Part shown: piece after piece, positions 2,514-23,163 of the stretch | Numbering within the stretch: position 1 is the stretch's first letter | Layout of the letters: each line of letters begins with the position of its first letter | From: Chloroflexota bacterium | Lineage (GTDB): Bacteria; Chloroflexota; Ktedonobacteria; Ktedonobacterales; JACDGC01 | DNA length: 42,379 nucleotides | Assembly (NCBI GenBank): GCA_021778805.1 | Contig: JAJYBV010000022.1 | Span: 1 to 42,379, forward strand | Direction of reading: 5' to 3' | Made by a program: the position numbers and the translations under genes | The notes under the pieces: generated by a model | Told to the model about the DNA's origin: nothing | Seen by the model: the letters and a program-made list of their open reading frames with translations, nothing else | Database searches by the model: none

Positions 2514-3776
2514 CTACGGCAATTGCTTCATATTCACCAATGTATTTAAAATACTATCGGAAGTAGTGATGGTTTTGGAATTGGCCTCAAAGCCACGTTC
2601 CGCAATAATCATATTTGAAAACTCACGGCTTAAATCGACGTTAGACATTTCAAGTGCGCCGGAAGTAACAGTACCGATACCATTTGTGCCGGGAACACCG
2701 GCAGCACCGATTGAACCGCCAAGGTTCATGGTAAATGTTTGCGTGCCCGAAGCCGGGGCCAGTGAAACACCACTTGGCAAGGTTAATGTCAGCGCGCCGT
2801 TAGCTGTAGTAAACGTGTATACCCCGCCTGCCAGCGATGAACTGGTTACCGGAACGGAAACACCGTTTACTGTTATAGTAGGTGTACCCGAAAGGCCTGC
2901 GGTTCCCATAGTAAAAGAAAGTGTTGCGCTGGTTACCGGGTAAGAATAAGGCAGCGTGCCTGTACTCAGCGCGCCGGAAAGGGTAGTTGGTGTAGTTGTC
3001 ATCGTCGCCGGAACAGACATTGTTGAAGGAAATGTAAGCGATGGTGAGTTTACCCCGCTATTGCCGGCAGAAATAACCGTTACCGCTGTGCCGCCGCCAA
3101 AATTAAGCACTGTAGCGTTGCTGATGTTTGAAACACCGGAGTTGAGCGTTGGAATATATAAACTGTTGCCTATTGCCTGCAGGCCGGTGGGGTTAGGGAA
3201 CTGCGCCAAAGCAATCTGCCCCAGTGTGGTAGTGGTGCCGCTGCTGCTAACGCCGGTTACAGTGCCATCCGGCGCTATACTATAGCTGGAATAAGAGCTG
3301 GGTATTGTAATAGGCGCTAACGGCGCATTGGTATTAATGGTCGGTGGGTTTCCCTGCGCTTGATAGCCAATAACAGCCATTCCGGTCGACGGATTAACCA
3401 GCGCGCCATTCGCGTCTAAATTAAATGATCCGTTGCGGGTGTAATACAGCCCGCTGTTGCCCTGCAGCACAAACATCCCATTACCCTGAATCATAAGATC
3501 GGTTGGTTTTCCGGTTGTTTCCGCACCGCCCTGTGAAAATATCGGCGATACCTGTGATACTTCAACACCTAAGCCAACTTGATTAGGGTCGGTGCCGCCG
3601 TTTGCCGCTGTTGGCGCGCCTGCGCCGCGAATTGTTTGGCTGAGCATAGTGTCAAATACGGTATTTGATGATTTAAATCCAATGGTGTCGGCGTTAGCAA
3701 TATTATTTGCAACAACATTCATCATCTGCTGAAATCCTTGCAAGCCCGTAATTGCGGTAAAAAGTGAACCAATCAT
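2514..3776 (-). CDS. flgE: Flagellar hook protein FlgE
   Basis: N-term MIGSLFTAITGLQGFQQMMNVVANNIANADTIGFKSS; C-term VDLSREFSNMIIAERGFEANSKTITTSDSILNTLVNMKQ, typical of FlgE/F/G; located next to flgD. Confidence 0.88.
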   Translation of the reverse strand: MIGSLFTAITGLQGFQQMMNVVANNIANADTIGFKSSNTVFDTMLSQTIRGAGAPTAANGGTDPNQVGLGVEVSQVSPIFSQGGAETTGKPTDLMIQGNGMFVLQGNSGLYYTRNGSFNLDANGALVNPSTGMAVIGYQAQGNPPTINTNAPLAPITIPSSYSSYSIAPDGTVTGVSSSGTTTTLGQIALAQFPNPTGLQAIGNSLYIPTLNSGVSNISNATVLNFGGGTAVTVISAGNSGVNSPSLTFPSTMSVPATMTTTPTTLSGALSTGTLPYSYPVTSATLSFTMGTAGLSGTPTITVNGVSVPVTSSSLAGGVYTFTTANGALTLTLPSGVSLAPASGTQTFTMNLGGSIGAAGVPGTNGIGTVTSGALEMSNVDLSREFSNMIIAERGFEANSKTITTSDSILNTLVNMKQLP

Positions 3777-4360
3777 GCGTTTCCTCCGTTAATTTGCGCC
3801 GCGCCGGTTGATGTTGGAGCGGTTGTTTGTGTTGTTGTGGTTTGTGTAGTCCCCGTAGATGTTCCACCGGAATTTGCGGCCGAACCGGATGATGAATTTG
3901 CCGAACCATCTGAACCGGCCGCGCCGGCAGTTCCGGAAGATCCCGCAGTTGTAGCGCCAGAATCAATGCCGGTTACATCCGCAACATTCATATTCTGGCC
4001 ATTGACAATCACGTTAATGGTAGATCCGTTTACTGAAACACCTGTTACTTGCCCGGTAACAGTTTGTGCATTGATGGAACCTGAAACGGTTTTACCAATA
4101 AGGTTATTTGCGTAATTTTGCTGCTGCGTCAGCATTAATTGCTGGGAAAATTCCGTTTGGTTCAGCTGCGCCAATTGGGTTACCATTTGCGAGCTGTCCA
4201 TCGGCTGTGTAGGGTCTTGATTTTGCATTTCCGCCACCAGAATTTGCAAAAACGTATTGATTCCAAGCTGATTGTTATTCATAAGCTGCGTAATCATCTG
4301 ACCGCCCGTGCTAGAGCCGGATGACGAAGAGCCTGAACTTGAACTTACAGGTAAACTCAT
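3773..4360 (-). CDS. flgD: Flagellar hook capping protein FlgD
   Basis: NQLGINTFLQILVAEMQNQDPTQPMDSSQMVTQLAQLNQTEFSQQL is a FlgD signature; 4-nt overlap with flgE. Confidence 0.9.
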   Translation of the reverse strand: MSLPVSSSSGSSSSGSSTGGQMITQLMNNNQLGINTFLQILVAEMQNQDPTQPMDSSQMVTQLAQLNQTEFSQQLMLTQQQNYANNLIGKTVSGSINAQTVTGQVTGVSVNGSTINVIVNGQNMNVADVTGIDSGATTAGSSGTAGAAGSDGSANSSSGSAANSGGTSTGTTQTTTTQTTAPTSTGAAQINGGNA

Positions 4361-4372
4361 AGCGCTGCTCCT

Positions 4373-5836
4373 TTATGCGTCGTAATCAATTGTTGAATAT
4401 ATGCGCGCGCCACGCGCCCGCGATTGCTGGATATCTGCCTTGACACCTGAAAATTCAGGTGTGGTATGATTTTGATTGGTTTGTGAAAATTGCTTTTCAG
4501 ACCGATTTCCTCCAAAAGATGTGTTACTGCCAAACGCATCCGTATGTTGCGCCGAAACATGCACCTGCGGTGTATGTGCGCTATATGGCGCCATAGCGTC
4601 GCGGATTGCTTGGGTGTGCGCCGAAATTGCCCCGGCAGCGGCAGACGGCGCGGCGATAGCGGCGATAAGCGTGCCTTGCGCGTCCTTGCGCATTGTGATA
4701 TGCACCAAACCCAAATCGGGCGGTGATATTTTAACGCGCATTTCTGTTTCAGCTCCATTTTGCAGCGCCGCCGCACGATTCATCATCATTTCGGGCAGCG
4801 CGCGCAGCGCTACCGTTTGTGCGCCGGCCGCGCTCTCACCGCTGTGTTGAACAGAAAACACCGAAGACGCGCCGCGGCTGTTTTCCACAGTAATCTTTCC
4901 GGGCGCAGGCTTATGATGTTCGGCGTTTCCGGATGATTGGCCAGACGTATTGGCTTCCATCGCAGTAAAGGAATTGCCGGACTGCGGCTGTAACTGAAGA
5001 TTTTCCATTATACTTTGAGCGCCAGATTTTGCGGCAAAAGATCCGCCAGGTTTCAGGGCATTTGCCGATTGAGCTGATGTTGCCGGCTGAAATAAGTTTG
5101 TGGACTGAACAGACTCAGTTAATGCCTGCGCAAAAGGTTTGCCTGCTGCAGCGCCGCCTAATCCAACGGGAAGTTTTGGCGCAACAGGTGTGGCGCTGTG
5201 ATTTACCAAAGGTTCCGCTAAGGATTTCAGCGCAACTTCCGCTTCTTGCGTTGGCTGAGCGCCATTGGCGGCGCTACTCCGGCTATTCGGCAGATCTTCC
5301 GGCAGTTTTATCGACGCTTGTGTTTCTTGCGCTGTCTTTGCAACTTCGGCAGAATTCCGGTTAACAGAATTTTGATTAGTCGGCAAAGTTTCCGATATCA
5401 TTGGCAATGCGACTCGCGGAGCTGTATCCGCAGATGCGCGCACAGCAGAAATTTCGCTGCGCGGCGCTGCAGCATACGGAACTGGCGCATTGCCGGCGGC
5501 GGTATTTTCAGCAGGTTTTAGCGCAAATGGTTTAACCGAAGCAACTGGCTCTTGATGGGTATGCTGGGCTGTTTCAGGATGGGTTTCGCGCTTTTTTTCC
5601 ATTTTTCGTTGATCAGATTTGCCGGAAACGAATGCGGTCTGCCCAAAATCAGCCAATTTTGTTTTCATCTTCAGCGCAGATTCCTGTGAATCGGCGTGAG
5701 GATTATGTTGCGATTGACTGGCGCTAATATTCCGCAAAGTATCAGAAAATGGAAATCCCTCTATGGTATCTTGCGCGGCAGCCGGGTGAGAATTTTGCGT
5801 AATTTCCGGCGGCAGCGCGGCAGGAATAGTAATCAT
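4373..5836 (-). CDS. fliK: Flagellar hook-length control protein FliK
   Basis: Low-complexity Ala/Ser/Gln-rich N-terminus; C-terminal Flg_hook-like EMRVKISPPDLGLVHITMRKDAQGTLIAAI; operon position. Confidence 0.82.
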   Translation of the reverse strand: MITIPAALPPEITQNSHPAAAQDTIEGFPFSDTLRNISASQSQHNPHADSQESALKMKTKLADFGQTAFVSGKSDQRKMEKKRETHPETAQHTHQEPVASVKPFALKPAENTAAGNAPVPYAAAPRSEISAVRASADTAPRVALPMISETLPTNQNSVNRNSAEVAKTAQETQASIKLPEDLPNSRSSAANGAQPTQEAEVALKSLAEPLVNHSATPVAPKLPVGLGGAAAGKPFAQALTESVQSTNLFQPATSAQSANALKPGGSFAAKSGAQSIMENLQLQPQSGNSFTAMEANTSGQSSGNAEHHKPAPGKITVENSRGASSVFSVQHSGESAAGAQTVALRALPEMMMNRAAALQNGAETEMRVKISPPDLGLVHITMRKDAQGTLIAAIAAPSAAAGAISAHTQAIRDAMAPYSAHTPQVHVSAQHTDAFGSNTSFGGNRSEKQFSQTNQNHTTPEFSGVKADIQQSRARGARIYSTIDYDA

Positions 5837-5854
5837 CAGAGCATCCTTTCTGAT

Positions 5855-6232
5855 TTAATTAATTGGAGCTAACGCGGTTGTCAGCATTGTGAATTTAGAG
5901 TTAATTAAATTCACTTCTGCCTGATAGGAAACCGATGTGCTGGTTAACTCCGTCATTTGCTGGTTAATATCCACATTATTTCCATCATTGCGCACTTGCA
6001 GATCATTCCTTGTGTATGGTTGTGGCAATTCAGCCGGCGCGGCAGCATTACTAAGGGGATTATTCATCACCTGCAGCAGCTGCTGTTCAAAGGCAATATC
6101 GTGGGTTAAATACCCCGGCGTATCAATATTAGCCAGATTATTTGAGATTAATTGCTGCCGCTGAGACAGGCCATTTAAACCGTATGTAAGCTGACTCATG
6201 GTTGCGTCAAATAAGCTCGGCGCTAATGTCAT
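5855..6232 (-). CDS. flgB: Flagellar basal-body rod protein FlgB
   Basis: LNGLSQRQQLISNNLANIDTPGYLTHDIAFEQQL ... GNNVDINQQMTELTSTSVSYQAEVNLINSKFTMLTTAL. Confidence 0.9.
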   Translation of the reverse strand: MTLAPSLFDATMSQLTYGLNGLSQRQQLISNNLANIDTPGYLTHDIAFEQQLLQVMNNPLSNAAAPAELPQPYTRNDLQVRNDGNNVDINQQMTELTSTSVSYQAEVNLINSKFTMLTTALAPIN

Positions 6233-6267
6233 ATGAGACCTCCTTTCTCATGTGCTTATTCTATTTG

Positions 6268-6723
6268 TTAAAGATGGGGATGGGATCTGCGGCTCCAGGT
6301 AATAAGTCCCATTTCGGTTAAACGATTATTTTCAGCGCGTTCTTCCTCTACCCGCGCATTCAGCGTAAACATTGATTTTAACCGTTCCATGGCTAATCGT
6401 TTCTGACTGGCATTAATACTTTCGCCGTGCGCATTTTCCGCCGAAGTTTGCGCCTGCTGCACCAAACGCTGTTTTTCAGCAATTTCGCGCCGTATTCGCT
6501 CAATTTCATATTGCGAAGCAACAATGGCAGAAATATCTATAGTTTCCGCTGATTTTAACGAATTCAGCTTGGTTTGCGCATCCAGCAATTTTTGTTCAGC
6601 TAATTTTTCCTGATTCTGCGTATTCTCTAAGCGGATTTGTTCAAGCGCATATGCGACCCTCAATCGCTCTTCAATTTGCAGCCGATAAGACAGCACATGG
6701 TCTAACGGAAAATGTTTAGCCAT
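6268..6723 (-). CDS. fliJ: Flagellar protein FliJ (coiled coil)
   Basis: Small coiled-coil protein of ~150 aa directly downstream of fliI; FliJ-like composition. Confidence 0.72.
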   Translation of the reverse strand: MAKHFPLDHVLSYRLQIEERLRVAYALEQIRLENTQNQEKLAEQKLLDAQTKLNSLKSAETIDISAIVASQYEIERIRREIAEKQRLVQQAQTSAENAHGESINASQKRLAMERLKSMFTLNARVEEERAENNRLTEMGLITWSRRSHPHL

Positions 6724-6786
6724 GAAAACAACCCCCTACATACAAAAAATAACAGCAAAATGGCAAACGCCAAAAAAGTACATGTA

Positions 6787-8103
6787 TCAATATTGAAAAA
6801 TTGCATCTAACTGCTCGATTGATTGTTCAAACGGTTCAAGAACACTAAATTCCTGCCGCTGAAACGCAATGATTCGAGATTGCAGCGCAATGGCGCGGTC
6901 GATAATTTGATTAGAGCCAATTTGGTAAGCGCCGATAGTTATCAAATCTTTATGTTTTTCATAGGTAGCCAGCGCATCGCGCAGCCGCCCGGCCAGCAGC
7001 ATATGGCGCGGTTCAGTAATATCCGGCATAACGCGGCTGATGCTGTGCAAAATATCGATGGAGGGAAAAATATTTTCCGCCGCCAAAGCGCGCGAAAGCA
7101 CGATATGGCCATCTAACACACCGCGCGCGGTATCAGCAATCGGTTCATTCATATCATCACCTTCAACTAAAACGGTATAAAAGGCCGAAATAACACCTAA
7201 AGGGGCGGCGCCGGCGCGTTCTATCAGCCGTGGAATCAGCGCAAAAACTGACGGTGTATAGCCGCGCAGCGCCGGCGGTTCGCCGGTTGCTAAGCCTATT
7301 TCGCGCTGCGCCATTGCAACACGAGTCAGCGAATCAAGCAGCAGCAGCACATGTTTGCCGGAATCTCTATATGCCTCGGCAACAGCAGTAGCCGTCCACG
7401 CAGCCTTCAGGCGCATTACCGCCGGCTGATCTGATGTGGCAATGACCAAAACCGAACGCGCCAGCCCATCTTTCCCAAGATTTTTTTCAATAAATTCCTG
7501 CGCTTCCCGCCCGCGTTCGCCGATTAATCCAATGACAATAATATCGGCTTGTGCGCCGCGGGCAATCATACCCAAAAGAGTCGATTTACCTACGCCGCTG
7601 CCGGAAAAAATGCCCATGCGCTGGCCTTTTCCGGCGGTGAGCGCGGCGTCTAACACACGCACACCTGTTGGAAGCGGGTTGGCGATACGCGGGCGTTCAA
7701 GCGGCATCGGCGCAGAGTTTTGCAAAGGAATGCGCTGTGCGCCAACTAACGGGCCTTTGCCGTCAATCGGCGAACCAAGCGCATCAATAACCCTTCCTAA
7801 CAGCGCCGGCCCCATAGGGATGGTTTGTCCGGAAGATACGCGCTGCACGTGTGCGCCGGGCCGAATGCCATGCAAAACGCCAAAAGGCATTAGCAAAATG
7901 GCGTCATTGCGAAACCCAACAACCTCGGTTAAAATCGGCGCTTCATCTGCCGATGCCTTCACATGGCAATAATCACCGATGCTGGCTTTCACCCCGCAAG
8001 CTTCAACCGCCAGGCCAATGGCGCTGCGCACTGTGCCCAGCGTTTCTACTGCCGGCGTTTTTTCCAGCGCAGCCTGATAATGCAATAAATCGATATTCAT
8101 CAT
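6787..8103 (-). CDS. fliI: Flagellum-specific ATPase FliI
   Basis: Walker A GIFSGSGVGKSTLLGMIAR; GERGREAQEFIEKNLG; LLLLDSLTRVAMAQREIGLATGEPP. Confidence 0.97.
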   Translation of the reverse strand: MMNIDLLHYQAALEKTPAVETLGTVRSAIGLAVEACGVKASIGDYCHVKASADEAPILTEVVGFRNDAILLMPFGVLHGIRPGAHVQRVSSGQTIPMGPALLGRVIDALGSPIDGKGPLVGAQRIPLQNSAPMPLERPRIANPLPTGVRVLDAALTAGKGQRMGIFSGSGVGKSTLLGMIARGAQADIIVIGLIGERGREAQEFIEKNLGKDGLARSVLVIATSDQPAVMRLKAAWTATAVAEAYRDSGKHVLLLLDSLTRVAMAQREIGLATGEPPALRGYTPSVFALIPRLIERAGAAPLGVISAFYTVLVEGDDMNEPIADTARGVLDGHIVLSRALAAENIFPSIDILHSISRVMPDITEPRHMLLAGRLRDALATYEKHKDLITIGAYQIGSNQIIDRAIALQSRIIAFQRQEFSVLEPFEQSIEQLDAIFQY

Positions 8104-8115
8104 AGTTTCCTCTCA

Positions 8116-8925
8116 TCAGGCTCCGGGATTTTGTACAGAGCGCTGCATATCGACTTCCAGAAACATATCGGAAACTTTTTTTGTCAGCGTTGCTAATCTG
8201 CCATCGATATAATTGGTATCCGATTCCACAATACAGTTGCCTTTTTCCAAGGTGAGATCTGGTATAAGGTGTGAATGCGCTGTATCCCAGCCATGTTCAA
8301 CCGCTATTTCATCCCAATATGGGTATAGCGTTTTAATGTCATCCGGGTTCAGTCGTATTTTTGCGGTTACCGAGTTTTCCAATTCTCCCAACAGCTTATT
8401 AATAAACCGAATAAACGTTTGCGGCTCGGCATGAAAAGCGTTTAACACAAGTGTAGAGGCAACCGCAACGCTTAATTGCGCTAAGGTAACCTGCGTATTA
8501 TGGATCGCTTCGCGCAGATCCATAACTGCGTTTTCGCTTAAGCGCCGCAAATCGGTTATCAGTGTATCCAGTTCTCTAAATATTTCCGCGCGGCCATCTG
8601 TTTTGCCTTGTTCAAAGCCTTCGCTAAAGCCTCGCTCAAAAGCTTGCCGATACGCCAACTCTTCAACTTCTTGAAAATGCGCTTTCATATAAGCCAGTTC
8701 TTTCTCAGTCTGCGCATACTTTTGTTGATATGCCTCTTCGATTTGCTGCAGCTGTACGGCCTTTTCATCCTCAGCTTGTTGAATTTTCTGAGTCAGAATT
8801 TGAATCGTTTGGGCAGGCGATTCAGATCCGGCCACAATATTCAGATTGTTTAACGAATCTGCCAGCGGCCGTATCGCTTTGCCTGGACGAAGAATCCACG
8901 ATCCTTTTGCAAAATGATCTGTCAT
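8116..8925 (-). CDS. fliH: Flagellar assembly protein FliH
   Basis: Position between fliG and fliI; E/Q-rich coiled coil; C-term IRLNPDDIKTL...DLTLEKGNCIVESDTNYIDGRLATLTKKV. Confidence 0.85.
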   Translation of the reverse strand: MTDHFAKGSWILRPGKAIRPLADSLNNLNIVAGSESPAQTIQILTQKIQQAEDEKAVQLQQIEEAYQQKYAQTEKELAYMKAHFQEVEELAYRQAFERGFSEGFEQGKTDGRAEIFRELDTLITDLRRLSENAVMDLREAIHNTQVTLAQLSVAVASTLVLNAFHAEPQTFIRFINKLLGELENSVTAKIRLNPDDIKTLYPYWDEIAVEHGWDTAHSHLIPDLTLEKGNCIVESDTNYIDGRLATLTKKVSDMFLEVDMQRSVQNPGA

Positions 8926-8954
8926 CGCCTGTTTTCCTTTCGGTTATTTTTACG

Positions 8955-9995
8955 CTACATCAATTCTTCATCGCTGCGCGAAATAACAATTTCTTCTTGA
9001 TCTTCCAGCCGGCGAATAGTATTTACGATACTGCGCTGCGCTCTGCTCACCTGATCCGAACGCATCGGCCCCATGGTGTCTAATTCATCGCGCATCATTT
9101 CTGCAGCGCGCGAAGACATATTGCGGTAGATGGTTACACGCACATCTTCTTTCACACCTCGCATCGCGCGGGCAAGTTCTTTCATATCTACCTCGCGGAT
9201 AATGCGCTGAATGGCTCTGTCTTCCAGCTTGGCAATATCTTCAAACACGAACATCTTCGAGCGGATTTGTTCAGCAATTTCCGGTACGGTTGCGTCAAGG
9301 TGATCCAACAGATTTTTTTCTGTCTGCCGATCGGAGCGCATCAGCACCTGCACCAGGAAATCAACGCCGCCGGAAGCGCCGCCGCCGCGGCTGATTGCGC
9401 CGGAAAGCCGCAGTTTCATCATTTCTTCCACATCGCGCACCAGTTCCGGCGGAGCAGCTTCCATAGTGGCTATGCGATAGGCAATTTCTGCCCTCGTGGA
9501 AGACTCCATTCTTTGCAAGATATTGGCGGCTAAATCGGGTGACATTTTGGCGATAACCAATGCAATAGTTTGCGGATGTTCTTCCAGAAGAAAATCCGCC
9601 AATTGATTGCGGTCTACATCGCGCAAAAATTGAAATGGCGCGTTATATCCACCTTGTGCGCTTAATCGCTTAATAATATCGTCGGCTGCGGAAGGGCCAA
9701 TTGCTCTGGCAAGAATCTGTCTTGCAACATCAATTCCGCCAACAGAACCGAAAGTAGCAATGCCGCTGCGCTCTAATCCTTCCTCGATAACGGCTACCGT
9801 TACCATGGGATCATAGCGTTTTAACTGCATCATTTCTGCAATAACCCGTTCTACAATATTGGGCGGCAACAGTTTCAGCACATCCGCCGATACTTCCGGC
9901 CCTAAATTTGCCAACAGGATCGCCGATTTTTGTTTGCCATTCGGCAGTTTCGTTGCAACCTGTGTATTTTGCGTATTAGCTAAAGACATAGACAT
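8955..9995 (-). CDS. fliG: Flagellar motor switch protein FliG
   Basis: EEHPQTIALVIAKMSPDLAANILQRM; FVFEDIAKLEDRAIQRIIREVDMKELARAMRG. Confidence 0.97.
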   Translation of the reverse strand: MSMSLANTQNTQVATKLPNGKQKSAILLANLGPEVSADVLKLLPPNIVERVIAEMMQLKRYDPMVTVAVIEEGLERSGIATFGSVGGIDVARQILARAIGPSAADDIIKRLSAQGGYNAPFQFLRDVDRNQLADFLLEEHPQTIALVIAKMSPDLAANILQRMESSTRAEIAYRIATMEAAPPELVRDVEEMMKLRLSGAISRGGGASGGVDFLVQVLMRSDRQTEKNLLDHLDATVPEIAEQIRSKMFVFEDIAKLEDRAIQRIIREVDMKELARAMRGVKEDVRVTIYRNMSSRAAEMMRDELDTMGPMRSDQVSRAQRSIVNTIRRLEDQEEIVISRSDEELM

Positions 9996-10010
9996 AGTTT
10001 ACTACCTCGG

Positions 10011-11696
10011 TTATCCTTCTTCGTACCAGCCGACAATAACATTTGCCAGCATTTCCGGATGTTCCCGCGCCAAATCCATTAAATTTTCTTTTAATGATTG
10101 CTGGCGGGCTTGTTCCGCTTCATCAATAACCATTTCATTGTATCGATGTTCAATTTGGCCGTTTGCCCCTATGGAAACTAACGATTTATCACCGGATGGC
10201 AGCGACGCCGCGCCGTTTGCAACCAGCATTTCCGATTCCGACAGCGGTTTGCCGTCTAAACCGATTGCAATGCGTTTGTCATCAACCAATGTAACCGTTG
10301 TGGTAGCTTTCGATTTTGTTTTTCGTGTTGCCCGGAAAGCAAATATCAACAGCGCGATGGCAACTATTGCTAAAGCAATGCCTTGCAGCATGATGGAAGT
10401 CATTTGATTTTGCTGCTGTGTTTGCAGCGCGCTTTGCGCCGCCGTATTAGCTGCATTGCTGAATGGCATGGCTGTTACAGTAATTTGGTCGCCGCGAGTA
10501 GTATCTAAACCGATTGCGTTTGCAACTGCAGATTGCACCGAAGCCAGGGTTGCCGGCGAATAGGTTCCATTTAATACAACGGCAACAGTCAGCCGCTGAA
10601 CAGACCCCGGAGCCTTAATTAAATGCTGCACCGTTTGTGTTACATCATAGGTTGTTTGACTTTGGTTCTGCACATATTGCGAGCCAGAAGCAGTCGTTCC
10701 GGCCGCAGCTGTTGGTGTTGGAACTAAGTTGCTGGCCGTGCCCGGAACACCTGAAGGGGTTACCGTGCCTTGCCCGTTGGAAGTAATGTTATTAATACTT
10801 TGCGAAGCAATTGCGCTTGGCGTTGGACTGTAGGTAGTGGTATCCTGCTGCAATTGATCCCAATTTAAGGATGCGTTTACCCGAACTACCGACTTGCCCG
10901 GACCCAAAATAGAATTTAACATGCTTTGCGCTTCAAGGCTTAATGTTTGTTCATATTGCTGCTGCACTTGCATAGATGTGCCATAGGTTGTGGCGCTTAC
11001 ACCGTTAGCAAGCGAAGAATCTAACACAATTTGCGACAAATTATTTCCATTAGAGTCCACCACGGTTACATTTTGCGGGGTTAACCCTTGCACCGAACTG
11101 GCCACTAAGTGCATAATTGCGCTTACTTGGGATGTTTGCAGTGTTGAACCCGGAGATAATTGCAGCATCACCGAGGCAGTTGCGCTATCTTGTGTAGATG
11201 TATACAGCGAGCTTTGCGGAAGCACAATACTTACACTGGCTTGCTGCACACCATTAATATTTTCGATCGTTCGCGTTAACTGGCCTTCCAGTGCGCGCTG
11301 ATAATCTACTTGCTGCAGAAAATCAGTCAGGCCAAGCGGGTTAGTTTTATCAAAGATTTCAAAACCAACCACGCCCTGACTGGGAAGTCCTTGGCCTGCA
11401 AGCATAAGGCGGGTAGAATCAACGACATTGGAAGGGACCATAATAACCGTGCCATTGCCGCTGATTTCATAAGGGATTTTCTGCCCTTTCAGCACATTAA
11501 CGATATTTGAAGCGTCTGTTGGCTGCAAATTACTAAATAACACATCATATTGTGTTTGCTGAGACCAAACCACAACACCAATAACCAACGCTATGGTAAT
11601 AACTGACCCTGCAATAAGCGCTATTTTTTGCGGATTGGTAATATGCTTCCACCATTCCCGCAGTTTATTCAACCAAAATGAAGGACCCTGCTGCAC
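10011..11696 (-). CDS. fliF: Flagellar MS-ring protein FliF
   Basis: YDVLFSNLQPTDASNIVNVLKGQKIPYEISGNGTVIMVPSNVVDSTRLMLAGQGLPSQGVVGFEIFD. Confidence 0.96.
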   Translation of the reverse strand: MQQGPSFWLNKLREWWKHITNPQKIALIAGSVITIALVIGVVVWSQQTQYDVLFSNLQPTDASNIVNVLKGQKIPYEISGNGTVIMVPSNVVDSTRLMLAGQGLPSQGVVGFEIFDKTNPLGLTDFLQQVDYQRALEGQLTRTIENINGVQQASVSIVLPQSSLYTSTQDSATASVMLQLSPGSTLQTSQVSAIMHLVASSVQGLTPQNVTVVDSNGNNLSQIVLDSSLANGVSATTYGTSMQVQQQYEQTLSLEAQSMLNSILGPGKSVVRVNASLNWDQLQQDTTTYSPTPSAIASQSINNITSNGQGTVTPSGVPGTASNLVPTPTAAAGTTASGSQYVQNQSQTTYDVTQTVQHLIKAPGSVQRLTVAVVLNGTYSPATLASVQSAVANAIGLDTTRGDQITVTAMPFSNAANTAAQSALQTQQQNQMTSIMLQGIALAIVAIALLIFAFRATRKTKSKATTTVTLVDDKRIAIGLDGKPLSESEMLVANGAASLPSGDKSLVSIGANGQIEHRYNEMVIDEAEQARQQSLKENLMDLAREHPEMLANVIVGWYEEG

Positions 11697-11723
11697 CGTT
11701 GTTTCCCCCTTTCACACTATTTT

Positions 11724-12056
11724 TCAGACCTGTAATTGCATCATTTGATTATATGCGTCGAGCACCTTATTGCGAACCTGCGTTGCAAGATCTAACGTAA
11801 CCGACGCTTGCGCCATAGCGATCATCACGCTATGAATATCGGTAGACTGCCCCGAAGCAAACTGCGACGCCAAGGTATTTGCCTGTTGATCGGTTGTATT
11901 TACCGCATTGAGCATCTGCCCGACCAAATTTGTAAAATCTTGAGCTGCGCTTGCCACATTGGAACCGGAGGAAGATCCGGCACCGGAACTGATAGACGGA
12001 ATTTGAATTGCCGTAATCGGGCTTAACCCAACTCCGCTGACTGCTGGTATATTCAC
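11724..12056 (-). CDS. fliE: Flagellar hook-basal body complex protein FliE
   Basis: DIHSVMIAMAQASVTLDLATQVRNKVLDAYNQMMQLQV C-terminal signature. Confidence 0.93.
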   Translation of the reverse strand: MNIPAVSGVGLSPITAIQIPSISSGAGSSSGSNVASAAQDFTNLVGQMLNAVNTTDQQANTLASQFASGQSTDIHSVMIAMAQASVTLDLATQVRNKVLDAYNQMMQLQV

Positions 12057-12153
12057 GTATTCCCTTACTTTCTATCGGCAAATAACACAAGAACATAAAT
12101 ATATCAATCAAATGGGGGATATATGTATGCCGCATTCGCCGATGTGTCATCCA

Positions 12154-12627
12154 TTACTTAATGGTAAGCGCTTGGTTTGCTGTTGTTTTTAATGAATTTA
12201 TAGCGGTTACATTAGCTGAATATGCGCGCGTAGCGCTCATCATATCCGACATTTCCGTTACCAAGTCTACATTGGGGTATCGCACATAACCGCTGGTGTT
12301 GGCTAACGGATTACGCGGATCATAGACAAGCCTTCCGGGTGTTGGGTCTTTATAGATAGAAATGACTTCAACACCGTTGGAAAGCGGCTGCTGCACACCA
12401 CCGGGATATGGAGTTGGCGGCGTCGGCGGCGAAAACGGAAACTGGGTATTTTCAATTGATTGAAACACAGCTTCAGCGCGCTGGTAAGGTCCGCCTTGTG
12501 GTGTTTGCGTAGTATTGATGTTTGCGATATTATCTGAAATGGTATTCATGCGAGTTTGTTCGGCAACCAAACCAGACGAAAGCATAGACATAGCATCAAA
12601 AAAACTCACTGGTATATCTCCTGCCAA
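12154..12627 (-). CDS. flgC: Flagellar basal-body rod protein FlgC
   Basis: SFFDAMSMLSSGLVAEQTRMNTISDNIANINTTQTPQGGPYQR; YVRYPNVDLVTEMSDMMSATRAYSANVTAINSLK. Confidence 0.93.
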   Translation of the reverse strand: MAGDIPVSFFDAMSMLSSGLVAEQTRMNTISDNIANINTTQTPQGGPYQRAEAVFQSIENTQFPFSPPTPPTPYPGGVQQPLSNGVEVISIYKDPTPGRLVYDPRNPLANTSGYVRYPNVDLVTEMSDMMSATRAYSANVTAINSLKTTANQALTIK

Positions 12628-17236: not shown

Positions 17237-17524
17237 ATGGAACTTACCCGCGATGAAGTAATGCGAATCGCGCAGTTAGCGCGTATAAAACTGACAGAGG
17301 AAGAAGTGACATCGCTGGCTTCTCAGCTTTCCAACATTCTTGGCCACATTGCCGCTATGCAGGAAGTAGACACCAGCGGCGTTCCCATCAGCGCCAGTAT
17401 TTTGCCTGTTACCAATGTTATGCGGGAAGACGCCGCCGAACCATCGCTGCCTATCGATGAAGCGCTGGCTAATACACCGGAACGGGAAGATAATTTTGCT
17501 CGTGTAAAGGCGGTGCTGGAATAA
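17237..17524 (+). CDS. gatC: Asp-tRNA(Asn)/Glu-tRNA(Gln) amidotransferase subunit C
   Basis: [49 protein letters not shown]; the internal ATG at 17237 is the more plausible start because the ORF start at 17180 lies in the hairpin. Confidence 0.93.
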
Positions 17525-19053
17525 TGGCTGCTACCAAGAAAAAAACTCCTGAAACGGCTCCTTGGCAATGGACCATACACGAAGCCGCTGATCAATTGCG
17601 GCAAAAAAAGATTTCATCGGTTGAACTGACTCAAGCGCATTTCGAGCGCATTCGCGCAGTAGATTCCTCGGTTAAAGCGTTTTTAACTCTTTTAGAAGAC
17701 AGCGCACTGGCTGAAGCCCGCAATGCAGATGAAAAAATAGCAAAAGGCGGCAATCTTTCGCCGTTAACCGGCATTCCGCTGGGTATTAAAGACGTTGTTG
17801 TTACCAAAGGTATTCGCACAACCGCCGGTTCCCGTTTTCTGGAGCATTTTATTCCGCCGTATGACGCTACGGTTATGACCAAGCTGCGTTCTTCCGGCGC
17901 GGTTTTTTTGGGCAAATTAAATATGGATGAATTTGCCATGGGTTCTTCCACCGAAAACTCTGCCTATGGCCCTACGCACAACCCATGGGACCTTACACGT
18001 GTGCCCGGAGGCAGCAGCGGCGGATCTTCCGCATGTGTTGCGGCAGGCGAAGCTATGGGGTCGCTTGGCTCAGACACCGGAGGCTCTATCAGGCAGCCGG
18101 CAGCGCTCACCAACACAGTTGGATTAAAGCCAACCTACGGAAGAGTTTCCCGCTTTGGGCTTATTGCGTTTGCCTCTTCGTTAGACCAAATCGGCCCATT
18201 TGCCCGCGACGCGCGCGACTGCGCTTACCTGTTGGAAACAATCGCCGGATATGATCCTCACGACTCCACTTCGGTCAACGTTCCTGTTCCTAATTATGCT
18301 GCGGAATTAACGGGTGACATAAAAGACATGAAAATCGGTTTGCCAAAAGAATATTTTGTAGATGGCGCCGAACCCGGAGTTACCAAAGCGGTTGAAGAAG
18401 CAATTGCGGTTTACAAAAAATTAGGCGCGAAATTTGTAGATATTTCGCTGCCGCACACCAAATATGGGCTGCCATGCTACTACATTATTGCTCCGGCAGA
18501 GGCCAGCGCAAATTTATCGCGCTACGACGGCATAAAATACGGATTGTCGCTGCACGAAACAGCCAAAGATTTGGAAGATGTCTATAAATCTACCCGCGCC
18601 GAAGGCTTTGGCCCGGAAGTGCGGCGCCGTATTATGATTGGCGCTTATGCGCTTTCTTCCGGCTATTACGACGCATTTTATAAACGCGCACAGCAGGTTC
18701 GCACACTCATTAAAAAAGATTTTGATGATGCGTTTGGCAAATGCGATATCATTTTAACGCCAACATCACCCACAACCGCTTTCAAGATTGGTGATCGCAC
18801 CTCTGATCCATATTCTATGTATCTGGCGGATTTATTTACCATTCCGGCAAATTTGGCGGGAATATGCGGAATATCTATTCCGGGTGGATTCAGTGAAGGT
18901 TTGCCTGTGGGAGTACAGCTGCTGGGCAATACATTTGCGGAATCGGATATTTTACGCGCCGCAGACGCTTTTGAACGGGTAACCGATTTTCATACCCAAA
19001 TGGCGGATCTTTCTGCCTCGGCGGTAAAACCGAAGCGTAAAAAAAGCTCGTAG
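17524..19053 (+). CDS. gatA: Asp-tRNA(Asn)/Glu-tRNA(Gln) amidotransferase subunit A
   Basis: [66 protein letters not shown]. Confidence 0.97.
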
Positions 19054-19059
19054 TAAACA

Positions 19060-19480
19060 ACCACTGAGCTGAAGACTCAGTGGCTTCGGCCACGAAAGTC
19101 CAGGCCCAGTCCCGCAAGGGCACGTTCACCAGACTCGGTCAGGAGAAATCCTGGTTCCGTTCGGAAGGTCATGACACCTCCGGTTGACGCATCAGACCGG
19201 CAGTTCTGTCGTTTGCAGTTAAGAAGGGGTGGGGTAAGGCCCGGTGCTGCAAGCGTAAAAAGCTTTTTGAACATTGTCGAGATGAGGTCGGATTCCCTGT
19301 GCGGTCACAGCACAGAGATACGCATCACCTGCCTTCGGGCAGAGTATTTTGAATTGGCTGGCTCTCATCCAAAGCCAGTCCCCGCACGGGGAAAGAAGTC
19401 ATTCAACACTACATTGAAACACAAGGGTAAGGAACGGCGGTTATTCTTTACAGCCACAAGCAAAAGAAATAACCGCCCCA
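19060..19480 (+). ncRNA. Putative HEARO/omega-RNA-like structured RNA without an adjacent IscB/IsrB ORF
   Basis: Dense hairpins: ccactgag-ctgaaga-ctcagtgg; ccc-gcaa-ggg; cagga-gaaa-tcctg; ctgtgc-ggtcaca-gcacag; ctgcc-ttcg-ggcag; ctggct...agccag; cccc-gcac-gggg; terminal 10-bp stem ggcggttatt...aataaccgcc. The segment ccggttgacgcatcagaccggcag resembles, from memory, the ccaguugau...aucagauaagccag core of IscB omega-RNA. Boundaries approximate. Confidence 0.5.
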
Positions 19481-19589
19481 GCGCTTTGCATAAACACTTG
19501 CCACTCTGAGCAGAGATCCTCCAGATCAATAACAACATTGCCCGCAAAATTTTGCGTAAAGGAATACACTGTATAAGCATGGAGACGCT

Positions 19590-20141
19590 ATGGCAAAGAA
19601 ATTGTTGAAGAAAAAACCACCAAAGAAAAACCGAAAACAGAATAAAGCAGAATACGCGACATATTTTGCGCGGTTATTGCTGGTTTCTGCGATTGTATTC
19701 AGCGCAGTGCTGCTTTTTTCCGCAATTGCGCTGCGCGCGGGCAATACGGCAGTCAGTTCCGCGGGAATATTGAATATATTAGCGCCGGCAAACGCGCCAC
19801 CGGCAATCAACGCCATTACAGTGCAAAATCCTGCGGCGCCGCAAAACACGCCACCGGCAATCCCTGCATATACATTCGGCATGTGGGCATCAAATATGGC
19901 GCCGGCGATTGGGCAATCAACAACTATCTATGCCAGGGTAAGCCACAATATGGCGCCAATGCCCAACATTACGGTAACAATTACCGCACAAGGCGCGACC
20001 TATTCGGCGGTAACAGACGCCGACGGCATAGCAATGTTTACATTAGCGAGCAGCGTGCGCAGCATACCGGTATTTATTGCCGGAAAAGTAAATGTTGGCG
20101 GCGAAGTTTTAACGAACTCGACATTTTTCACACCATATTGA
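19590..20141 (+). CDS. Hypothetical single-pass membrane protein with Ig/carboxypeptidase-regulatory-like C-terminal domain
   Basis: Lys-rich N-terminus (MAKKLLKKKPPKKNRKQ), hydrophobic segment LLLVSAIVFSAVLLFSAIAL, then MPNITVTITAQGATYSAVTDADGIAMFTLA. Confidence 0.6.
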   Translation: MAKKLLKKKPPKKNRKQNKAEYATYFARLLLVSAIVFSAVLLFSAIALRAGNTAVSSAGILNILAPANAPPAINAITVQNPAAPQNTPPAIPAYTFGMWASNMAPAIGQSTTIYARVSHNMAPMPNITVTITAQGATYSAVTDADGIAMFTLASSVRSIPVFIAGKVNVGGEVLTNSTFFTPY

Positions 20142-20727: not shown

Positions 20728-23163
20728 ATGAACGCTAAACTTAAAAGCCTTGTAGGATCAAATATCAAACTTATCACCAAAAGAGAAACCTGTGGATATT
20801 CGCGAAAAAAACTTGCAACTCAAATTGCGCGATACCTTTATACCGACACTGCTGCTGCGATCGATGTGCAAGAAATCGGCAGGTGGGAACGCAATGAACA
20901 TCAGCCAAACATAGAATATAAAAAGGCGTTATGCGCTATTTTAAACGCAACACCCGAAGAATTGGGGTTCAGTTCCCGATCAAAAATAATGACAAGTGTT
21001 CCAGCGTATTTACCGATTGAGAAAAACTATACCGGCAGAAACAATTTGCGGACAATATTTCAGGAAAAATTAGCGGCAAATAAGAAGAAAACTATTTTAG
21101 CGGTGCATGGAGTTGGCGGGATTGGCAAATCAGCATTTATTGCTACAATTATACAAACGACTGCCGCTATACAAACAACTTTTTCCGATGGTGTTCTTTG
21201 GATAACGTGTGAAAATTTTACCGGCGCAAGAGGTTATAACAGATTTTTAAGGCATTTAGCTGATAAAATAAAGGCAGCAGATCCTTTAAGCGCAACGATT
21301 CAACAAATAAAACATACACTCCTGGTTTATTTTTCTAAGTTAAACCATTGTTTGATCATACTGGATGATATCAATCCTGATTTAGAGAAAAATCTTAAGG
21401 AAATATTTGAGTTGCTCTGCGCAGAAAAAAATACAACCCTCATCCTTATCTCCCGGCAAAAAATTAATAGCGCCGATAGATGCATATTCGATGTACCAAT
21501 GCCATCACTCACAAACGCTGAAGCAAACACGTTAATGGCCAGATTATTACAGGAGAAAACCAATGAAAGACCAGATTTACCTGAATGGAATATTATTCCA
21601 AATATCTGCCAAACAGTTGTAAATCATCCATTAACTATACACTTGCTCAGCGCATATTATTCAGAAAATAATATTTTAATCCAAAATGATTATCAAAATT
21701 TACAGCAATTATTTTCTCAAACCAAGGTAATGGACACTGGTCTAAAGCAGTGTTTTGAACGATATCACCGATTGCTGAGTGAATTTAAGCAATTTTTATT
21801 GGCGGCTTTGACCCTTTTAGACGGCAAATATATCGCCAAAGCAATCATTATTTCAATGGGGCAAGCGCTGGCCGAAGCTAAACACCATACCATAGATATG
21901 TCCCAAGAAATAGCGGAATTAATACAATCTTCAATCGTTACGGAGGCCGGTGATGATGATGTCACAATTCATGATATTTATCGGGAATACATTCTCAATA
22001 ATTTCCAAACAAAATTTTCACAAAAAGATCAAACGCTTATCTATAGCCTTTTAGCCAATGTTTTTGCAGATTATGCCATCCAATATCGTGAACATGTGTT
22101 TGATTTCCATGAAAATATGATTGGCAAGCAGGAAACTAATATTCATAACGCGCTTCAATGGGCGAATGAACAGCAAAACTATGCGCTCATCGGCAAAATA
22201 TGTTTAGGTATGTCTGGCTATTGGCGCACAAACGTCTTATCAGAAGAAAACATTACTTGGCAGAAATATATTCAATGGGGAATTGAAGCATACAATAAAC
22301 TGCTTCAGCCACTTCGCGCAGAAACTTCGGAATATCGATTCGTAATGATGGAAAAAGTCAGTATTCAAAATTTACATGCATGGTTCTATTTTAATCGCCG
22401 GGAACTTGATTCAGCCAAAGCTATATATACCGAAACAATACAAACCTTTCAAACGCTGCAGAATATACGCGGAATCTGCTCTACAAACATTGCGCTTTGT
22501 GAAACAGCTATGTCAAATGGCGATTGGAGCGCCGCAGCGCTATATGCCGCAACAGCCATTCAGCTGTTAGACGCTGAATTGAAGAAACCGGAAAACACCG
22601 AACGGCTAAAATTGCTGCGCAATAGAGGCGAGGCAGAAACAATGGAGGCTAAAATAGCTTGGTTCCATGAAGAATATGAAACTGCGATACAAAAATTGCA
22701 AAACGCAGAACAATTTTTTAAAGACAGCCAAAACGATTGGGGATTAGTTACTTGCTGGTCGCTGCTGGGACATATCTATTTAGATCTTCATCACGATGTG
22801 AAGATGGCTTTTCAATATGTTGCCAAAATGCAGCAAACAGATTTAAGAAATGACGATGATGTAGCTATTGATTGGGTTCTTTCAGCGAAAATTTTGGTAG
22901 AAAATAACCAATTGCGCAACGCAGAGCAGATATTATTGCGGTATATATCCGAACATAACAATATCGTATTTTATGAATATCTGGCAATTGCAAATTATAT
23001 TCTCGGAGTTATTTATTATAAGCAGCATAAACAACAAAAAGCCTGCGCGCACTTTCAAGAAGCAATTCAGCTGCGATCTGCGCATTTCGGGCCAATTACC
23101 AAAAATGCGCAGCGCTATATAGCGGAGATTTCCGGCGAGGAATCTATGATACATAGCAAATAG
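20728..23163 (+). CDS. HTH (XRE-like) - NB-ARC/STAND NTPase - TPR regulator
   Basis: HTH region SRKKLATQIARYLY...VQEIGRWERNEHQPNIEYKKALCAILNATPEELGF; Walker A AVHGVGGIGKSAFIA; Walker B-like CLIILDDINPD; LILISRQ; TPR-like C-terminus. Confidence 0.82.
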   Translation: MNAKLKSLVGSNIKLITKRETCGYSRKKLATQIARYLYTDTAAAIDVQEIGRWERNEHQPNIEYKKALCAILNATPEELGFSSRSKIMTSVPAYLPIEKNYTGRNNLRTIFQEKLAANKKKTILAVHGVGGIGKSAFIATIIQTTAAIQTTFSDGVLWITCENFTGARGYNRFLRHLADKIKAADPLSATIQQIKHTLLVYFSKLNHCLIILDDINPDLEKNLKEIFELLCAEKNTTLILISRQKINSADRCIFDVPMPSLTNAEANTLMARLLQEKTNERPDLPEWNIIPNICQTVVNHPLTIHLLSAYYSENNILIQNDYQNLQQLFSQTKVMDTGLKQCFERYHRLLSEFKQFLLAALTLLDGKYIAKAIIISMGQALAEAKHHTIDMSQEIAELIQSSIVTEAGDDDVTIHDIYREYILNNFQTKFSQKDQTLIYSLLANVFADYAIQYREHVFDFHENMIGKQETNIHNALQWANEQQNYALIGKICLGMSGYWRTNVLSEENITWQKYIQWGIEAYNKLLQPLRAETSEYRFVMMEKVSIQNLHAWFYFNRRELDSAKAIYTETIQTFQTLQNIRGICSTNIALCETAMSNGDWSAAALYAATAIQLLDAELKKPENTERLKLLRNRGEAETMEAKIAWFHEEYETAIQKLQNAEQFFKDSQNDWGLVTCWSLLGHIYLDLHHDVKMAFQYVAKMQQTDLRNDDDVAIDWVLSAKILVENNQLRNAEQILLRYISEHNNIVFYEYLAIANYILGVIYYKQHKQQKACAHFQEAIQLRSAHFGPITKNAQRYIAEISGEESMIHSK

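Follow-up and report, generated by a model that had tools for sequence, protein, structure and literature searches.

The sequence that directly follows gatA in the 42,379-nt stretch of Chloroflexota DNA analysed here (hereafter the window) raises the question of what structured RNA it encodes, and how such an RNA came to lie there with no nuclease gene beside it. An initial annotation had likened it to the HEARO/ωRNA scaffold, citing hairpin motifs that are all found in the window sequence, and had proposed a covariance scan against HEARO, RNase P and intron models. That scan (cmscan) returned HEARO only: RF02033 matches the forward strand at 19053-19292 over the whole model (1-211 of 211) with 76.1 bits and an E value of 2.1e-15, beginning at the very base with which the gatA ORF (17524-19053) ends and so placing the RNA directly 3' of gatA as described. 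The curated gathering cut-off of the family is 83 bits, and a default scan therefore misses the locus; nearly identical copies elsewhere in the genome reach 84.0 and 89.9 bits, and the shortfall in the window is probably due to a lineage-specific 5' insertion together with a few changes. Over 447 nt, the stretch folds 3.5 standard deviations better than dinucleotide shuffles (z -3.5), with none of 100 shuffles folding as well, and an alignment of 30 sequences predicts 63 pairs, 21 of them changed on both sides. Covariance search and covarying alignment together support its assignment as a HEARO/ωRNA. Superficial motif likeness, such as gaaagtcc, might recall RNase P RNA, an intron or another structured RNA; given that HEARO is the sole match among 4227 Rfam families, even at E values up to 10, we regard such an identity as extremely improbable.

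Around this core the element can be read base by base on the forward strand. Its predicted guide is the 17-nt sequence CGTAAAAAAAGCTCGTA (that is, cgtaaaaaaagctcgta) at 19036-19052, in the 3' end of gatA and directly 5' of the conserved left end. An IscB guide comprises the ~16-17 nt 5' of the scaffold (PMC9640706); the guide had been placed in gatA correctly to within a few bases, the exception being 'gtaaac', which belongs to the scaffold starting at G19053. The left terminus itself, GTAAAC (19053-19058), supplies the last base of the gatA stop codon: TA from gatA and G from the element make TAG, so that GatA retains the C-terminus (KSS) that it has in a same-genus relative. A subterminal hairpin, CCACTGAG-ctgaaga-CTCAGTGG (19061-19083), is kept in all copies and doubles as the 5' part of the ωRNA. 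Beyond the core lie a conserved hairpin (tccctgtgc...gcacagaga, 19297-19321; a covarying helix at alignment columns 300-308/360-368) and a terminator-like hairpin, ctgccttcgggcag (19329-19342), which with the following agtattttg probably forms the ωRNA 3' end (19329-19350). The joint ggggaaag/aagtc (19391-19396) marks the loss of iscB and most of tnpA, as comparison with contig C42 on the iscB side and with tnpA-type right ends reveals. It leads into a tnpA remnant reading E V I Q H Y I E T Q G stop (19395-19430); the Y1_Tnp frames of contigs C80, C101 and C123 close with these codons too, R replacing Q, and the TnpA of a related genome, brp13, ends alike. From 19478 to 19560 the sequence is native gatA downstream DNA.

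When the ORFs of the window were read, no IscB, IsrB or TnpB gene was recognised, and genome searches with Pfam RRXRR and Y1_Tnp gave no match inside this window. The earlier statement that the window holds no IscB, IsrB, TnpA or TnpB ORF thus stands as regards recognisable genes, with the qualification that 11 final codons of a Y1-type tnpA survive, together with its stop. No sigma-70 promoter was found on the forward strand near the element. Elsewhere in the window, positions 20728-23163 encode an 811-aa protein with an NB-ARC domain (STAND-type NTPase) and a weak match to TPR, which may act in regulation or defence, and 2514-12627 on the reverse strand appears by eye to be a flagellar-like gene cluster (hook, FliI-, FliG- and FliF-like ORFs) in this relative of the Ktedonobacter order.

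Related copies lie elsewhere in the genome. The assembly is a 3.25-Mb draft in 157 contigs from the same order as Ktedonobacter racemifer, fragmented at the very repeats considered here. A search with positions 19040-19600 recovered 23 left ends, the window copy and 22 others that are 97-99% identical and have differing flanks; most of the 22 lie where contigs end, as a repeat that interrupts assembly would. At the left boundary a variable flank changes sharply into GTGAAC in the 22 other copies and into GTAAAC in the window. On the right, other copies end in ...CCACGAAGCTAAAGACTTCGTGGTTTTCTCGCTCGGCCAG followed by TATAAA, with C49 reading TATCAATAAA and C109, C53 and C3 carrying small variants. 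Twenty right ends were counted, ten with a tnpA end and ten of deletion type, the window included; since assembly breaks inside the repeat, left and right ends were tallied separately, without copy-by-copy pairing.

Contig C42 holds an ωRNA 98% identical to that of the window and then, exactly where the window sequence departs, the start of iscB (MKSMVYVLSS..., Pfam RRXRR E 1e-22). The tnpA-type right ends lie on C80, C109, C101, C3, C123, C131, C98, C54, C133 and C53; a Y1_Tnp match is reported for five of them, and the other five have the same sequence. All ten deletion-type ends share a single joint, ggggaaag/aagtcatt, at which the ωRNA tail is fused to the last 11 tnpA codons. The suggestion that this is an element whose ORF was deleted is thereby upheld, and the search advocated for iscB or isrB and for copies with different 5' flanks has yielded both, in the iscB start of C42 and the 22 further left ends. 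The description as a standalone ωRNA is accurate in that iscB or isrB is absent directly downstream of the window ωRNA, in contrast to sister C42, and by definition we file it in that class, the form without an adjacent iscB; it is by no means isolated, belonging as it does to a dispersed ISC family of IS200/IS605 type. At the family level this is evident from the Y1 TnpA of sister right ends and of brp13, and the MITE-like character from an internal deletion common to several dispersed copies (ten right ends, one joint). The same genome also encodes, on contig C28 (L035:1492-2781), an intact 429-aa IscB (RRXRR and HNH) accompanied by a HEARO RNA of its own that is clearly different (117 bits), with no tnpA noticed beside the gene.

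The family extends beyond this genome. In brp13 a complete homologue (L125) comprises left end, ωRNA, a 422-aa IscB (RRXRR and HNH), Y1 TnpA, right-end hairpin and TATAAA. When named genomes were scanned with a pattern, 43 related loci emerged, nearly all of them in Ktedonobacter racemifer, K. robiniae, Ktedonobacter sp. SOSP1-85, Tengunoibacter tsumagoiensis and brp13. These fall into two size classes, iscB-bearing elements of ~1.7-2.0 kb and iscB-less ones of ~383-440 bp; by tblastn and hand count, 23 of the 43 have IscB and 20 have none, figures that are not a census because the scan pattern favours the conserved core. The short forms of the relatives differ in internal sequence and lack the tnpA tail, and the deletion there was therefore probably independent of that in the lineage of the window. 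Two further loci merit mention: a related element with iscB (L070:233-506 and downstream) on a contig of 3.8 kb whose MAG carries the label Acidobacteria gp1, reflecting either horizontal transfer or mis-binning, and a standalone ωRNA with a ~17-nt tandem duplication in its core (L089:4727-5052).

Empty sites define the manner of insertion. In a same-genus genome (G001) whose GatA is 94% identical, gatA is followed directly, with no element, by downstream DNA homologous to that which resumes in the window at ~19478. Seven flank joints of short copies (six from relatives and one from contig C142) were used as joined queries, and six were found unbroken in other genomes. The aligned empty sites read left flank followed by (N)TAAA (ATAAA, GTAAA, CTAAA or similar) with zero duplication, the first T of TATAAA being mostly the element's own. 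The element family thus inserts just 5' of (N)TAAA without target duplication, a statement that holds for the family, the window's own right junction having been lost. This layout, with the guide to the left and the TAM to the right, is that expected for IscB.

Taken together, these findings make it very likely that the element behind gatA is a non-autonomous, MITE-like derivative of an ISC (IS200/IS605) transposon that was internally deleted, spread, and subsequently lost its right end at gatA. The parent would have had the order left end, ωRNA, iscB, tnpA, right end; the deletion took out iscB and nearly all of tnpA but spared the left end, the complete ωRNA together with its terminator and the region of the tnpA stop, as well as the right end in sister copies. 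It was this shortened form that spread, presumably by means of TnpA supplied in trans. Several points weigh against this reading: the HEARO score below the gathering cut-off, one additional broken pair in the window ωRNA compared with sister C57, and the fragmentation of the MAG at these repeats. Nor does the draft contain full iscB and tnpA genes of the family, holding only the first ~80 iscB codons, and we therefore infer a source of IscB and TnpA in trans. Inserting each time just 5' of (N)TAAA, every copy would acquire its flanking DNA as its guide, and IscB made elsewhere could use that guide to cut the matching empty site, so that the element is copied back. Retention by nuclease cutting of the empty site and copying back has been described for TnpB (PMC11870625); its extension to IscB acting in trans on short elements is our inference by analogy. 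The window copy entered gatA at its stop codon and, with its ωRNA left nearly intact, later lost its right end; any ωRNA made from it would come from the gatA transcript.

Whether the ωRNA is itself retained in the short elements bears on this proposal. Consensus pairs are kept to 99.0% in standalone and 98.3% in iscB-linked ωRNAs (Mann-Whitney p 0.50; left-end stem added), and 17 of 66 pairs are changed on both sides among standalone ωRNAs alone. The two classes are equal in pairing, a comparison that is no independent proof of the fold, the consensus having been drawn from the same sequences. By hand tally over five genomes, the ωRNA core is present in 52 of 61 left-end matches, and three of the nine core-less ones have a right end; these figures fit the ωRNA being retained, without proving selection because the left end overlaps the ωRNA. 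It is conceivable, if rather unlikely in our estimation, that the ωRNA is a mere passenger, the short elements spreading by their two TnpA-recognised ends and the RNA persisting by chance through that overlap. The dual use of the left-end hairpin would accord with such a history, as would the existence of elements with both ends and no ωRNA core (L142 and L150); against it, such elements are rare by the tally above, and the short forms of the window lineage and of Ktedonobacter, formed at different joints, both contain the whole ωRNA. The two core-less cases are a ~180-bp element with both ends in Ktedonobacter racemifer (L142:48-214) and, in Tengunoibacter, one of ~41 bp in which the left and right hairpins are fused (L150, complement).

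The present state of the window copy is a separate matter. Its 10-bp stem is exact, ggcggttatt at 19437-19446 pairing with aataaccgcc at 19468-19477, but it is not the normal right end of the family, contrary to the suggestion that it could be the right end of an element. The palindrome region (19437-19477) is an aberrant end occupying the position of the canonical hairpin, CCACGAAG-ctaaaga-CTTCGTGG plus TATAAA, a hairpin that is present in the other 19 right ends. No other copy of the palindrome was found in seven genomes, and the idea that it belongs to a dispersed repeat was rejected on that ground; as to its source, we can only guess at a fold-back template switch. Having lost the right-end hairpin and TATAAA, the window copy is probably immobile. 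We would accord nearly an even chance to its being a dead relic, a decayed ISC derivative whose functionless ωRNA persists only because it is recent. The lost right end speaks for this, as do the GTAAAC terminus, the divergence from sister copies (4 of 299 ωRNA positions and 6 of 95 in the tail are changed, two of these six at the rearranged end) and a guide with no other near-perfect target in the draft. Conversely, the ωRNA fold is nearly intact, with 61 of 66 consensus pairs kept against 58 of 62 in sister C57; the one pair broken in addition to those of C57 is the third of the guide-adaptor stem, where A faces C. The standalone ωRNAs of related genera, moreover, are fully paired. Decay would concern present function only and is compatible with the internally deleted ISC origin that we favor. 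As to targets, the guide at 19036-19052 has one perfect match in the draft, which is itself, and two sites with two mismatches; at up to three mismatches there are 18 matches against 29 for a reversed control, hence no evident target in trans, and a second guide target was rejected on these counts. Mismatches in the TAM-proximal 14 positions abolish IscB cleavage (PMC9640706). That the copy has been domesticated, fixed behind gatA so that an ωRNA from gatA mRNA with its gatA guide would load IscB from other copies and act on gatA alleles or other DNA, strikes us as very unlikely.

The principal interest of the locus lies in showing where a standalone ωRNA can originate, namely in an internal deletion of an ISC transposon that leaves both ends and the complete guide RNA in place. 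Nearly half of the 43 related loci in our core-favouring scan are short forms, with deletion joints that differ between genera, and for this IscB family the empty sites yield (N)TAAA as a natural insertion motif. It thus becomes testable whether a guide-only element can exploit the IscB and TnpA of its relatives.

Standalone ωRNAs were reportedly found together with IscB by Altae-Tran et al. in 2021. Compared with the HEARO family RF02033, the window RNA shares the full-length model match, the fold and, in a sister copy, an adjoining IscB gene, whereas it scores below the gathering threshold and carries an insertion in its 5' domain that the model lacks. With ISC elements of the order left end, ωRNA, iscB, tnpA, right end, such as that of brp13, it has in common the left end, the ωRNA and, at the family level, the subterminal hairpins and insertion 5' of (N)TAAA without target duplication; unlike them, the window copy lacks iscB and most of tnpA, and its right end is destroyed. 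Standalone ωRNAs able to function with IscB have already been found (PMC9581776). Our element resembles them in carrying an ωRNA with no adjacent iscB, and its close sequence relatives here include Ktedonobacter racemifer copies; it differs in that the short form is tied to a parent deletion, defined ends, empty sites and a tnpA remnant, and in the lost right end of the window copy. The kind is therefore already known from related bacteria, and it is its origin that is better resolved here.
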